Assembly (NCBI GenBank): GCA_017935025.1
Contig: JAGBIL010000017.1
Location: forward strand, 1 to 64,000
DNA length: 64,000 bases
Reading direction: 5' to 3'
Source: Opitutales bacterium
GTDB lineage: Bacteria > Verrucomicrobiota > Verrucomicrobiia > Opitutales > UBA953
The position numbers and the translations under genes were made by a program. Below are positions 39,620-43,779 of this stretch, one piece after another; the first letter of the stretch is position 1; every line of letters starts with the position of its first letter. Below the pieces are notes generated by a model that saw nothing but the letters and a program-made list of their open reading frames with translations, did not search any database and had not been told where the DNA came from.

Positions 39620-40213
39620 ATGACGACTCGAAACAAAATCACGACACTTCTCGCACTCAGCGTCCCCGTGGCGGTTGCCGTTTCCGCCGTCAATCCCCCC
39701 GCCGGAAACGTCTGGTTTATAGAAATTTTCTGGTGCGTTGCTTACTGGATTTTTCTCGTTGCGACATTCCGTCATTTCCGCTTTTCAAACACGGCATACG
39801 CAATCGCCACCTCCTGGTGCATTTTGCAAACCGTCGGAGCGCACTACACGTTCGAACTCGTTCCGATGACACAGGACTGCTTCGGTTTTGAGCGCAACCA
39901 TTTCGACCGCATCGCACATTTTGCCGTCGGACTAAACGCCTTTCTGATTTCGGAATTTCTTTTCCGCAAAAAAATCGTTCCCGGGCTTCGCGCAGCGGCA
40001 ATCGGCGGATTTTTCGTTATCGTTGCCGTCGCCGGACTCTGGGAAATCGTCGAGTGGCTCTACGCCGTGTATGACGGAGGCGAAATGGGAGCCGCATTTC
40101 TCGGCTCGCAGGGCGATATTTGGGACGCACAAAAAGACATCCTTTGCGACACGCTCGGCGGTCTTGTCGCGGGAACGCTTTTCGCAAAAATGCCCCGGCC
40201 CCAGTGCTCCTGA
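39620..40213 (+). CDS. DUF2238 (YjdF-like) membrane protein
   Basis: 197 residues with about six membrane helices. Signature FGFERNHFDRIAHFAVGLNAFLISEFL and GLWEIVEWLYAVY...DIWDAQKDILCDTLGGLVAG match DUF2238/YjdF, an inner-membrane family of unknown function with conserved acidic and His residues in the helices. ATG 39620 preceded by CCGTAAAA with no Shine-Dalgarno. Ends four bp from the convergent flippase stop with no visible terminator between. Confidence 0.85.
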   Translation: MTTRNKITTLLALSVPVAVAVSAVNPPAGNVWFIEIFWCVAYWIFLVATFRHFRFSNTAYAIATSWCILQTVGAHYTFELVPMTQDCFGFERNHFDRIAHFAVGLNAFLISEFLFRKKIVPGLRAAAIGGFFVIVAVAGLWEIVEWLYAVYDGGEMGAAFLGSQGDIWDAQKDILCDTLGGLVAGTLFAKMPRPQCS

Positions 40214-40216
40214 AAT

Positions 40217-41743
40217 TTAATCAGGCAAAAAACGACTTCTGATTTTTTCGCGAATAAATGCGCGTTCCCGTGCGGTCATTCCGACAAAATAAATCGCGAG
40301 AACACTACAGAAGACAGACACACTTCCGACGAAAATCAAGCGAATCCAACCCTCGCTCATACAGCCGCAAATGATTGCCGGAGCAACTGACGATACCGCT
40401 AAAACCGTTCCCGCAGGGAAAAAAACTCGGAGGAAATACATACGTACCGAAAAACCGATTTGCCTCTTTAAGAGCCATACACGCCAACACATCATTAACG
40501 CTTCCTGCACCGCCCCAAGCAAAAAGACAAGGCTCGCCGGCATACCAGCGCAAAGTGCAAAGTAGCTTCCGAAAAAGTAAAGCGCGTGAAGTGTTGCAAA
40601 CCCGACTTGGTGTGCGCGAATATTTCCCGTGGCCATAAGAGCCTGAAACATCGGTTGAGCCGACGTAACAATCAGTCCTTGAAGAATAGTGATCCGCAAG
40701 AAAATTCCCGTATTCGCCGGAACATCTCCCAACCAAATTTTTAAAACGAAATCACTCTCAAGAAAAACCGGAATTGCAAAAATCATCAGCAGGAAAAACG
40801 ACATCTTACAGGTTTTCAATATTAACGAATGTCCTTGTGCAACTTCTCCCGCGACCTGCGTTTTTACGATTTGCGGACCTGCCGCTATTTGAAAGTTTGC
40901 AACGAAACTTTGAATTGTTCCCGAAACCTGCAAAGCAATCCCCCGTGCAGCGTTTACGACGGGGCCGAAAAATTGGTTAAGCAAAATGTTGATTCCCTGA
41001 CCGGAAAGCGCACCCGAAAAATGAGAAAGCAAGCTCCACCCCGTGAAAGAAACGATTTCCCGTGCCTTATTCACGTTAAAATAAAAACGGAAGCGACATT
41101 CTTCAAAATTGATCCGGCAAAAAACCCGATACGTCATTGCAACGACAAATGACGTTCCCGCGCAAAGCACTGCGTAGAGAATCAGCTTGTCCCCACCGAG
41201 TGTTGTCAGCAGAAAAACAAGCAACAGTTTTAAAACGACTTCCCCAAGGCTGACATAGGCATAAACGCTCATGCGTTCCCGCGCGATAATCGTCGCCATA
41301 TATGGCACTTGCAAGACACCGATGATAAACGAAAACACGGAGCATTGGTAAACCCAATTCAGGGCGGGTACGCGGTCTGAGGGAACATTAAGTTGCGTAT
41401 TTACGAACCAGAGTCCGAGTGTTTCCGCCAAAAGAAGGATTGCCACCGCAAGTCCGGTGTGAATCGTCAGGGTCAGAGAGAACGTCTTTTTTAATTCGTC
41501 AAATTTTTTTTTGCCGAGCGCTACAAGCAAAAACCGCTCCGTACCGCGAGCCATCGCCGTATTCAGAAACGCGAGAAAAGTAACAAATCCACCGACGACA
41601 TTGTAGATTCCGAAATCGTCCATTCCGAGTGTCGCCAAAACTACGCGCGACGTATAAAGCCCGACGCCCGTAGAAACGAGCATCCGAAAGTAAAGCATTA
41701 ATGTGTTCCGCATCAGCCGATGCGCGTCGGCGGCTCCGGACAT
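40217..41743 (-). CDS. MOP-superfamily oligosaccharide flippase (Wzx/MATE-like)
   Basis: 508 residues with 12-14 hydrophobic helices. N-terminal NTLMLYFRMLVSTGVGLYTSRVVLATLGMDDFGIYNVVGGFVTF is the polysaccharide-transporter (Wzx/RfbX) opening; later SLLSHFSGALSGQGINILLNQFFGPVVNAARGIALQV fits the same family. Would flip an undecaprenyl-linked oligosaccharide or other lipid-linked product across the inner membrane. Its ATG overlaps the upstream stop by one base (TAATG), so it is translationally coupled to the PP-loop-like gene. No glycosyltransferases are next to it. Confidence 0.88.
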   Translation of the reverse strand: MSGAADAHRLMRNTLMLYFRMLVSTGVGLYTSRVVLATLGMDDFGIYNVVGGFVTFLAFLNTAMARGTERFLLVALGKKKFDELKKTFSLTLTIHTGLAVAILLLAETLGLWFVNTQLNVPSDRVPALNWVYQCSVFSFIIGVLQVPYMATIIARERMSVYAYVSLGEVVLKLLLVFLLTTLGGDKLILYAVLCAGTSFVVAMTYRVFCRINFEECRFRFYFNVNKAREIVSFTGWSLLSHFSGALSGQGINILLNQFFGPVVNAARGIALQVSGTIQSFVANFQIAAGPQIVKTQVAGEVAQGHSLILKTCKMSFFLLMIFAIPVFLESDFVLKIWLGDVPANTGIFLRITILQGLIVTSAQPMFQALMATGNIRAHQVGFATLHALYFFGSYFALCAGMPASLVFLLGAVQEALMMCWRVWLLKRQIGFSVRMYFLRVFFPAGTVLAVSSVAPAIICGCMSEGWIRLIFVGSVSVFCSVLAIYFVGMTARERAFIREKIRSRFLPD

Positions 41744-43119
41744 TATGAGTTTCGTTTAAAAATTTTCCGGTAAATTTTTCGCAAAAGCGGAATCTTCGCT
41801 GCACGGGAACGCACGAATGCGGCGACAGCCAAAACACTTGCTTCCGCAAACAGAACCGGAGAAATGTCTTTGCGGAGAATTTTGAATGCCTCTTTTACCA
41901 TCAAATCCCCGCAGGGATTTATTTGCTGTGCCGCAAGCCATCTCAGGTACTTCCTCCGGTGTAATTTGTAGTAATCAATATCGAAAACAGCGCAAAATTC
42001 TTCAAGTTTACCGAGAGCATCGAGCGAAACAAGCGTTCGGCGGCATTTCCCGCAAACATTGCAATTTCCTCCGATGTCGCTCGTGCAAACGTGCAAATAT
42101 TTTTGAGCGGGAACAAAGTCGGCGAGCAGTTTCGTTTTTTCAAAACGGGTCTTGGCTCCGCCTTCGGAATAAATTTTCAACTGCCGCGAAGAAAAACACG
42201 GAAGCGAAAGAAGTTCATAATGGTCCGACGAATTAAATTCGTTGTTTTTCAATTCAAACGCACCAAAATCGTAGCCGCTTGAAGCGTAAAAATAAACGCC
42301 CCAAAGTTTTTGAAGCACAAGAACCGAAAAGATGCTCGAATAAGTATGCGTCAACAAATGGTTCTGCGGGAACGCTTCGGCAAGATTTGAATTTGTCTGA
42401 ATAAATTCAAATCCGTATTCCCGTGCAAATTGCTTGGCATGTTCCGTCTGCCAACGGAATTGACGATCTTCGTCGTCATGGGAAAACGCGCCGACGTTAT
42501 TCAAAATCAAATGCGTCAATCGTAAGTGCGGGAACGGGCTTTGCGCATTGCAAGCGACAGCATGAAGCGAATCAATTCCGCAGGAAATTCCGGTACCGAC
42601 TGCTCCCGCGTTCGGTAACATTTTCACGTCGATTTCACCCGAAATTTTCGGGGCATGAAGCCTTTTACTCGCCTTGACAAGTGACGGAATCAGATAAGTT
42701 CGGATTTGATAAAGCAATTCTTCGCCCACAGGCGCCTCGCAAACAAAATCGCAACGTTCCCGCATCGCCCAATTAAGCAAAGCGACGAGAAATGCGTCTG
42801 AACGCTCAAAACAAAGAAATTTTCCGTATTTTTCTTCGACTTCAAACCAAACCTCGCGCACGTCTCCTGAAACATCAATTTTCGCAGACAGACGGGAACG
42901 CCCGTTGAACGTTTTAACTTCCGGTCGGCGAATCGTAACAATCTTTGCAGACACATCCGTTTCGGACGAAAGATTTTCAAAAAATTTTGACATTCCGTCT
43001 GAAAACGCAAGTTGCTCGGCAGAAGAGATCTTGCCTTGGACAGAAAAAAGCAATTCCTCCGGAAGAGAAAACGCAGGATCGGTTAAAGCTAAAGTTTCTT
43101 CTCTCATTTCTTTTGACAT
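41743..43119 (-). CDS. PP-loop ATPase-like protein with C-terminal Cys cluster
   Basis: 458 residues, no signal peptide. After a beta-rich N-terminal part, residues 177-185 read GISCGIDSL, close to the SGGxDS PP-loop of N-type ATP pyrophosphatases (amidotransferase/ligase enzymes such as QueC or asparagine synthetases); the second G of SGG is C here. Further LTHLILNNVG and a YASSGYDFG block fit that fold. A Cys cluster C345, C353, C356, C359 (CxxCxxC within HVCTSDIGGNCNVCGKCRRT) probably binds zinc or Fe-S. Coupled to the flippase, so a role in modifying an exported saccharide or peptide is plausible, but the product is unknown. Its start codon lies within operator box 1. Confidence 0.65.
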   Translation of the reverse strand: MSKEMREETLALTDPAFSLPEELLFSVQGKISSAEQLAFSDGMSKFFENLSSETDVSAKIVTIRRPEVKTFNGRSRLSAKIDVSGDVREVWFEVEEKYGKFLCFERSDAFLVALLNWAMRERCDFVCEAPVGEELLYQIRTYLIPSLVKASKRLHAPKISGEIDVKMLPNAGAVGTGISCGIDSLHAVACNAQSPFPHLRLTHLILNNVGAFSHDDEDRQFRWQTEHAKQFAREYGFEFIQTNSNLAEAFPQNHLLTHTYSSIFSVLVLQKLWGVYFYASSGYDFGAFELKNNEFNSSDHYELLSLPCFSSRQLKIYSEGGAKTRFEKTKLLADFVPAQKYLHVCTSDIGGNCNVCGKCRRTLVSLDALGKLEEFCAVFDIDYYKLHRRKYLRWLAAQQINPCGDLMVKEAFKILRKDISPVLFAEASVLAVAAFVRSRAAKIPLLRKIYRKIFKRNS

Positions 43120-43216
43120 AAAATTATGTCTAAGAAATATGTTTTTAACATAACATTATGTCAAATTGTGAATTCTCCGAGAAAAATTAGCTTTGTGTTA
43201 GACATCTCAGTATGTC
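43115..43216. promoter_or_regulatory. Three GACAT-N6-ATGTC operator boxes between divergent genes
   Basis: Box 1 43115-43130 (GACAT-AAAATT-ATGTC), box 2 43147-43162 (AACAT-AACATT-ATGTC, one mismatch), box 3 43201-43216 (GACAT-CTCAGT-ATGTC). Centres are 32 and 54 bp apart, near whole helical turns. Box 1 covers the start codon of the PP-loop gene and box 3 that of the RHH-like gene, so binding should repress both. Confidence 0.75.
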
Positions 43217-43502
43217 TAAGAGCTCGAAACAGTTCTTTATCGCGTTCCCGCGCGAGATCCTTAACGCATACGAATCTTGCCAGAACATGAAAAATTTTGC
43301 CTCATTCGTACGGGAAGCGACGATTAGGCGTTTAAATACGGAATTCGGATTCACTCTGGACGAAAAGCTCGGAAATTTCCGGCGTGCGCAGCGCACAGAC
43401 CTGATGAATCCGCAGGCAAGGCGGGAAAAGTTACCCGAATTGCAACGGCAAGCCGCGCGAGCTCGTGCGAAGAAAAAAGGAACGGACGCAAAACCGATTT
43501 AA
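43212..43502 (+). CDS. Small ribbon-helix-helix-like protein, probable autoregulator
   Basis: 96 residues. Residues about 7-43 (QFFIAFPREILNAYESCQNM then KNFASFVREATIRRLNTEF) follow the CopG/Arc ribbon-helix-helix plan: a short strand, a P-x-E/x-LL helix, a turn and a second helix with FVREATIRRL. The remaining half is basic and polar (ARARAKKKGT). RHH proteins bind palindromes as dimers of dimers; three matching palindromes lie just upstream, one overlapping its own ATG. Alternatively it is an antitoxin-like or unknown protein. No toxin gene is visible beside it. Confidence 0.6.
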   Translation: MSKSSKQFFIAFPREILNAYESCQNMKNFASFVREATIRRLNTEFGFTLDEKLGNFRRAQRTDLMNPQARREKLPELQRQAARARAKKKGTDAKPI

Positions 43503-43563
43503 TTTCTTGCCAGCGGGACGGGAACGCGGCATTTTGTTGCGTTCATCAAACTTTTTTAAAGCC

Positions 43564-43779
43564 GTGAGAGAAGATTATCTGAAACAAGCGAACAAAGTCA
43601 TCAAGGATCCGAACATTCTCATCAATGTGGTTTCCCACCGCGTTCATCAGCTTCAGCACGAAGGCATGACGCCGCTGATTGAGTCCCTTGAAAAACTCGA
43701 ACCCGAGGACATCGCCCTCCGCGAAATCATCGAAGGCAAGCTCTCCTACGAATTGCCGGAATCGTTCCCGAACGCATAA
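43564..43779 (+). CDS. rpoZ: DNA-directed RNA polymerase omega subunit
   Basis: 71 residues from GTG 43564. VREDYLKQANKVIKDPNILINVVSHRVHQL matches the N-terminal core of omega (the segment that wraps the beta-prime tail), and the later EPEDIALREIIEGKLSYE matches its conserved helix. Upstream in-frame codons reach back into the RHH-like gene and are unlikely to be translated. Sits before smpB. Short but complete; helps assembly of RNA polymerase and ppGpp response. Confidence 0.85.
   Translation: MREDYLKQANKVIKDPNILINVVSHRVHQLQHEGMTPLIESLEKLEPEDIALREIIEGKLSYELPESFPNA

Follow-up and report, generated by a model that had tools for sequence, protein, structure and literature searches.

A putative ribbon-helix-helix autorepressor and its predicted operators in an exchangeable, probable envelope-polymer cassette of an Opitutales bacterium

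The locus lies in a 64,000-nucleotide stretch of contig JAGBIL010000017.1 from an Opitutales bacterium (here, the window). A gene for a 96-amino-acid protein (43212-43502, plus strand) is divergent from two minus-strand genes encoding a 458-amino-acid QueC/QatC-like PP-loop ATPase (41743-43119) and a 508-amino-acid polytopic membrane protein resembling a flippase (40217-41743). The start of the flippase gene overlaps the stop codon of the PP-loop gene (TAATG), and we therefore treat the two genes as one operon. The 508-amino-acid product shares 29% identity with a flippase-like protein, which itself matches Polysacc_synt_3 just under the cut-off. On the other side, the 96-amino-acid gene is followed by rpoZ for RNA polymerase omega (43564-43779, plus strand). 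No Rfam element was found.

The initial annotation had described the product of the gene at 43212 as ribbon-helix-helix (RHH)-like, a proposal that gains indirect support from profile comparisons and structure prediction. The protein itself had no matches in Pfam and NCBIfam, no significant match in PHROG, and no relative in a viral scan, and among 273 genomes sampled across the order, only 1 of 88 genera contained its relatives. Profile searches detected remoter homologues whose sequence is plainly of the RHH type and which likewise have an RTDL motif following the domain. Using hhalign, the profile of the 96-amino-acid family (A1) aligned with that of the bridging homologues (A7) with a probability of 95.7% (E 8.5e-9), and one A7 member passes Pfam RHH_3 (score 25.8 against a cut-off of 21.6); the similarity to RHH sequences is thus reached via the bridging homologues rather than by a direct profile match. 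The AF2 monomer has an extended segment at residues 1-13, helices at 14-23 and 29-45, and a separate, basic C-terminal helix at 67-90, with a pLDDT of ~90 over residues 11-50; no strand was assigned, as expected for a single-chain prediction from which the dimer partner is absent. RHH domains comprise an N-terminal strand and two helices within ~45 residues, and as dimers they contact DNA via the paired strands. Foldseek and VIA matched no RHH structure to the predicted model, and a search of the PDB with the 96-amino-acid family profile found no RHH. Profile hits in the PDB to NikR, Arc, CopG, and EndoAI were discarded as independent support, as they vanish without three classical homologues. 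Because structural libraries gave no match, we regard the RHH fold of this putative DNA-binding protein as well supported rather than proven. The protein family and its operator are undescribed, and the open literature that we searched contains essentially no work on RHH regulators in Verrucomicrobiota.

Three palindromic boxes, assigned to no strand, lie between and partly within the divergent genes. Box 1 spans 43112-43133 (TTTGACAT-AAAATT-ATGTCTAA; core at 43115-43130), box 2 spans 43144-43165 (TTTAACAT-AACATT-ATGTCAAA; core at 43147-43162), and box 3 spans 43198-43219 (TTAGACAT-CTCAGT-ATGTCTAA; core at 43201-43216). The initial annotation listed three GACAT-N6-ATGTC palindromes. The 5-6-5 layout holds in all three and the sequence is exact in boxes 1 and 3, but box 2 is a one-mismatch copy (AACATAACATTATGTC) with the left arm AACAT. 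Its start-to-start spacings of 32 and 54 bp were borne out, as was the placement of two boxes over start codons: the minus-strand ATG of the PP-loop gene (43119) is inside box 1, in the right arm as read on that strand, and the plus-strand ATG of the 96-amino-acid gene (43212) is inside the right arm of box 3. With three bases added on each side, the boxes become the 22-bp dyads TTTGACATaaaattATGTCTAA, TTTAACATaacattATGTCAAA, and TTAGACATctcagtATGTCTAA, respectively. On its own, the 10-base core carries little weight: the 2.03-Mb genome contains 2 exact copies, where ~1.6 are expected from composition alone, and 30 places with at most one mismatch. Three such sites within 102 bp have a Poisson expectation of ~2e-5 genome-wide, based on the observed density, and in 20,000 Markov simulations of a 150-bp region with the local composition, no sequence contained even two sites. 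The clustering of the three boxes is not due to chance.

Based on a consensus scan, the region contains a sole sigma-70-like site, which is the predicted promoter of the PP-loop/flippase operon (43136-43164, minus strand): TTGACA (43164-43159), 17 nucleotides, and CATATT (43141-43136). A consensus match of this kind is weak by itself, with 0.6 expected per shuffle. Its -35 element is inside an arm of box 2, its -10 element occupies the 10 bp that separate box 1 from box 2, and transcription is predicted to start inside box 1, ~10 bases from the start codon. In G003, the second species with the module (contig SUVQ01000001.1, "Verrucomicrobia bacterium isolate SIG76", from a single-protein scan), the promoter is kept as TTGACA-17-CATAGT; the consensus match is 10 of 12 positions in both species, and the overlap with the boxes is conserved. 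The rpoZ promoters of the genus are similar in style. Among that in the window (TTGCCA-17-CATTTT at 43507-43535) and the rpoZ upstream regions of six other genomes, most have TTGCCA or TTGCAA and, after ~17 nucleotides, CATNTT, which suggests a clade-specific -10 element. The scan recognised no promoter for the RHH gene.

The geometry of the boxes and the predicted promoter is that of a repressor site. The 96-amino-acid protein could instead be a cognate RHH regulator that activates the operon, either solely or while repressing its own gene, the latter being the case for the RHH protein AmrZ, a repressor of its own gene and an activator of algD (PMC3986905). We consider this improbable, since activators usually bind upstream of the -35 element, whereas box 2 overlaps the -35 element and box 1 overlaps the start point and the start codon.

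The longer arms are much more specific than the core. The extended pattern TTNGACNTN6ANGTCNAA occurs, with at most one mismatch, at four places in the 2.03-Mb genome, i.e., boxes 1 to 3 and the start of a paralogue of the 96-amino-acid gene, and all are at genes of this family; the reversed control had no matches. Among eight genomes of the genus, 6 of 7 perfect matches to the extended pattern are at genes of the 96-amino-acid protein family, the exception being in G005, and the pattern therefore appears to be nearly specific to these genes. A group of paralogues, 45-51% identical to the 96-amino-acid protein, is present in four genomes; in three of these, the variant box TTTGACTTTGCGCAATGTCCAA lies over the paralogue's own ATG, and in the fourth, the box has one further change. 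This suggests that operator and protein changed together. A local RHH autoregulator is expected to have a cognate palindromic operator at its own promoter or start and not elsewhere; box 3 and the paralogue boxes each lie over the ATG of the family gene itself, and the four genome sites are all at family genes. More distant paralogues have no shared box, and their upstream palindromes are mostly no better than those in shuffled sequences; we therefore dropped the idea that every paralogue has its own box.

The surroundings of the paralogues vary. The paralogue in the same genome (L019:8419-14660, on C42) adjoins a candidate defence gene (PDC-S31/DUF2971-like) and a gene for a 1,413-amino-acid surface protein with Chlamydia-PMP repeats and PEP-CTERM-like features; similar giant repeat proteins adjoin a paralogous RHH gene in G003 and G007. 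A more distant RHH paralogue in G007 (L023:7198-9484) has its own AT-rich palindromes, TAACAAATTAATTTGTTA, and adjoins cas1 and a Cas2-like gene.

Palindromes with a 5-6-5 layout are used by many regulators, and the sites here are known from sequence alone, so that another, unlinked transcription factor could bind the boxes with the small protein as a bystander. This seems to us quite unlikely because the extended motif occurs in the genome only at genes of the 96-amino-acid family, and a paralogue has its own diverged box, which is what co-evolution of autoregulators would produce. Autoregulation via palindromes near promoters is also known for RHH antitoxins and MobC-like proteins (PMC2812701 and PMC4175270), and the 96-amino-acid protein could accordingly be an antitoxin, or a partition or relaxosome accessory protein with the boxes as its iterons; we find this very unlikely, as no toxin, ParA, or relaxase gene is adjacent, the neighbours being the PP-loop enzyme, the flippase, and rpoZ/smpB. 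In a test for a type II toxin-antitoxin system, no toxin gene was found in an operon with the RHH gene, and PADLOC gave no hit.

At another locus, G003 has all three genes arranged as they are here, together with the boxes; the three-box module was found in these two species only. Between G000 (the genome of the window) and G003, 45 of 48 positions are identical in the box arms, compared with 12 of 18 in the N6 spacers and 23 of 42 in the other intergenic DNA, and the spacing of the boxes is equal, with no indel between them. Box 1 in G003 has decayed on one side (TTTGACATaatattTAGTCTAC). Since Met-Ser-(Lys/Asn) is encoded in the right arms of box 1 and box 3, coding may account for part of their conservation. 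Box 2 is wholly non-coding and its arms are identical in both species; its conservation is thus not a coding effect. It is accordingly extremely unlikely that the boxes are a coding by-product, with both genes starting with ATGTC(T/A)AA and AT-rich DNA supplying the other arm, since this would account for the right arms of boxes 1 and 3, which are coding in both species, but not for box 2, for left arms that are non-coding and yet conserved while the spacers changed, or for the simulations at local composition. The placement of the boxes on the predicted promoter and this cross-species footprint support the suggestion of the initial annotation that the boxes control the divergent pair.

The PP-loop protein matched no Pfam family at E values up to 1, including the QueC model PF06508. 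Its best structural neighbours are QatC (Z 12.8 over 301 residues), QueC (Z 11.6), and Cap9 (Z 11.3). The QueC family signature comprises an SGGxDS loop and a C(x)8CxxCxxC zinc motif (PMC13329287). The PP-loop protein has the loop SCGxDS, which resembles SGGxDS with one change, and a close variant of the zinc motif, C-x7-CxxCxxC (C345-x7-C353-xx-C356-xx-C359), the four cysteines of which are invariant in seven homologues. Unlike QatC, QueC, and Cap9, it has no match to PF06508, no YPDC, and the altered loop. As far as these models go, its relation to QueC is one of structural similarity only. The protein is patchily distributed in the phylum (26 of 289 genomes), and most relatives examined adjoin envelope-polymer genes, i.e., genes for a flippase with a CapA-type PGA_cap protein, polysaccharide pyruvyl transferase, a glycosyltransferase, or an acyltransferase. 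In contrast to QatC and Cap9, these relatives lie among polysaccharide genes and lack qatABD or CBASS genes as neighbours. A reading of the PP-loop gene as part of a QatC-like defence system was rejected in view of the absence of a PADLOC hit and of qat or CBASS partners, and of the polysaccharide neighbours.

PP-loop proteins that match no Pfam family are encoded in envelope-polymer clusters of Verrucomicrobiota at 41743-43119 (minus strand) in the window and at L074:6780-8021, L073:5842-7044, and L075:6524-7975; clusters with such a QueC/QatC-like gene sometimes include PGA_cap and flippase genes. A second PP-loop gene in the same genome (L078:6870-8009, on C40), with 36% identity, lies in a cluster with genes for an acyl carrier protein (ACP), ketoacyl-ACP synthase III, an SDR protein, and sugar modification.

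The divergent genes and their boxes are part of a stretch of ~3.3 kb (40183-43497, no strand; edges taken from alignments and approximate to a few bp) in place of which the closest relative, G005, has 355 unrelated bp between flanks that align at 90-91%. The replaced stretch begins where the upstream DUF2238 gene ends and runs to the stop codon of the RHH gene; the right junction is inside this stop codon, and the rpoZ promoter is outside the junction. No integrase or insertion sequence is present in the cassette. The empty site in G005 (L088:6411-6765) contains an 18-codon Arg-rich open reading frame, MKNLKLALVGIRRRRKQA, and a terminator-like hairpin, and no similar sequence was found in the other fetched loci. 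DNA identity between G000 and G003 is 75% in the cassette and 87% in rpoZ-smpB; the cassette was therefore not exchanged recently between the two species. The proposal of a self-contained module agrees with the presence of the three genes and boxes in a second species, at a different locus, and with the clean empty site in G005; genes, operators, and spacing appear to behave as one exchangeable cassette.

The best reading of these observations is a horizontally variable envelope-polymer cassette that is putatively repressed by a local RHH autorepressor. We consider it likely that the 96-amino-acid protein represses both its own gene and the divergent PP-loop/flippase operon in an accessory envelope cassette. 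RHH dimers would bind 22-bp palindromes of the form TTNGACAT-N6-ATGTCNAA, with a half-site spacing of 11 bp, or one turn. At a distance of three turns from each other, boxes 1 and 2 would bracket the single promoter of the operon, with box 2 covering the -35 element, the -10 element lying between the boxes, and box 1 covering the start point and the start codon, so that occupied boxes would keep the operon off. Negative feedback would come from box 3, which covers the start codon of the repressor gene itself. The gene set, operators, and spacing would travel as one unit, a locally regulated accessory cassette that would serve an envelope polymer through the QueC-like PP-loop enzyme and the flippase. 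We infer DNA binding and repression by the 96-amino-acid protein at the boxes from sequence, and repression of the operon from the overlap with the predicted promoter; the signal and the enzyme product in this explanation are likewise presumptive.

The proposed mechanism, a local RHH autoregulator that also controls a divergent operon, is ordinary. Less so is the presence of a QueC-like enzyme in a putative envelope cassette, and this unexpected setting merits its own study. The locus also offers a compact putative operator-repressor pair from a phylum with little such work, and the paralogue and its variant box are natural variants from which to read how RHH specificity changes. These results suggest that surface-polymer genes of the genus move with their own switch. 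More speculatively, and in our view doubtfully, the genus-restricted RHH family may have diversified into dedicated switches for exchangeable envelope modules, every switch having an operator of its own. The switch described here would command an undescribed branch of QueC-like enzymes whose target, shared with a flippase and in other clusters also with a CapA-like protein, would be an exported polymer and not nucleobases or defence proteins.

Several known RHH systems share parts of this arrangement. MobC of RA3 functions in a conjugation context, for which there is no counterpart here, but is likewise an RHH autoregulator acting via an imperfect palindrome before its own operon (PMC4175270). 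In the RelB/relO system, contiguous 12-bp half-sites and a toxin co-repressor contrast with arms that are 6 bp apart and no toxin, while RelB dimers also bind adjacent subsites on one DNA face, and the ATGTC(A/T) arm is similar to the relO core [A/T]TGT[A/C]A (PMC2812701). AmrZ of Pseudomonas, an Arc-type regulator of alginate, Psl, and motility (PMC3986905), differs in acting globally, with 154 ChIP peaks recorded for P. fluorescens compared with four predicted sites in the genome here, and the 96-amino-acid protein, unlike AmrZ, has no significant sequence match to any library. AmrZ, likewise of the RHH type, acts as a repressor at its own promoter and as a regulator of a surface polysaccharide (PMC3986905), roles that resemble those proposed here for the 96-amino-acid protein.
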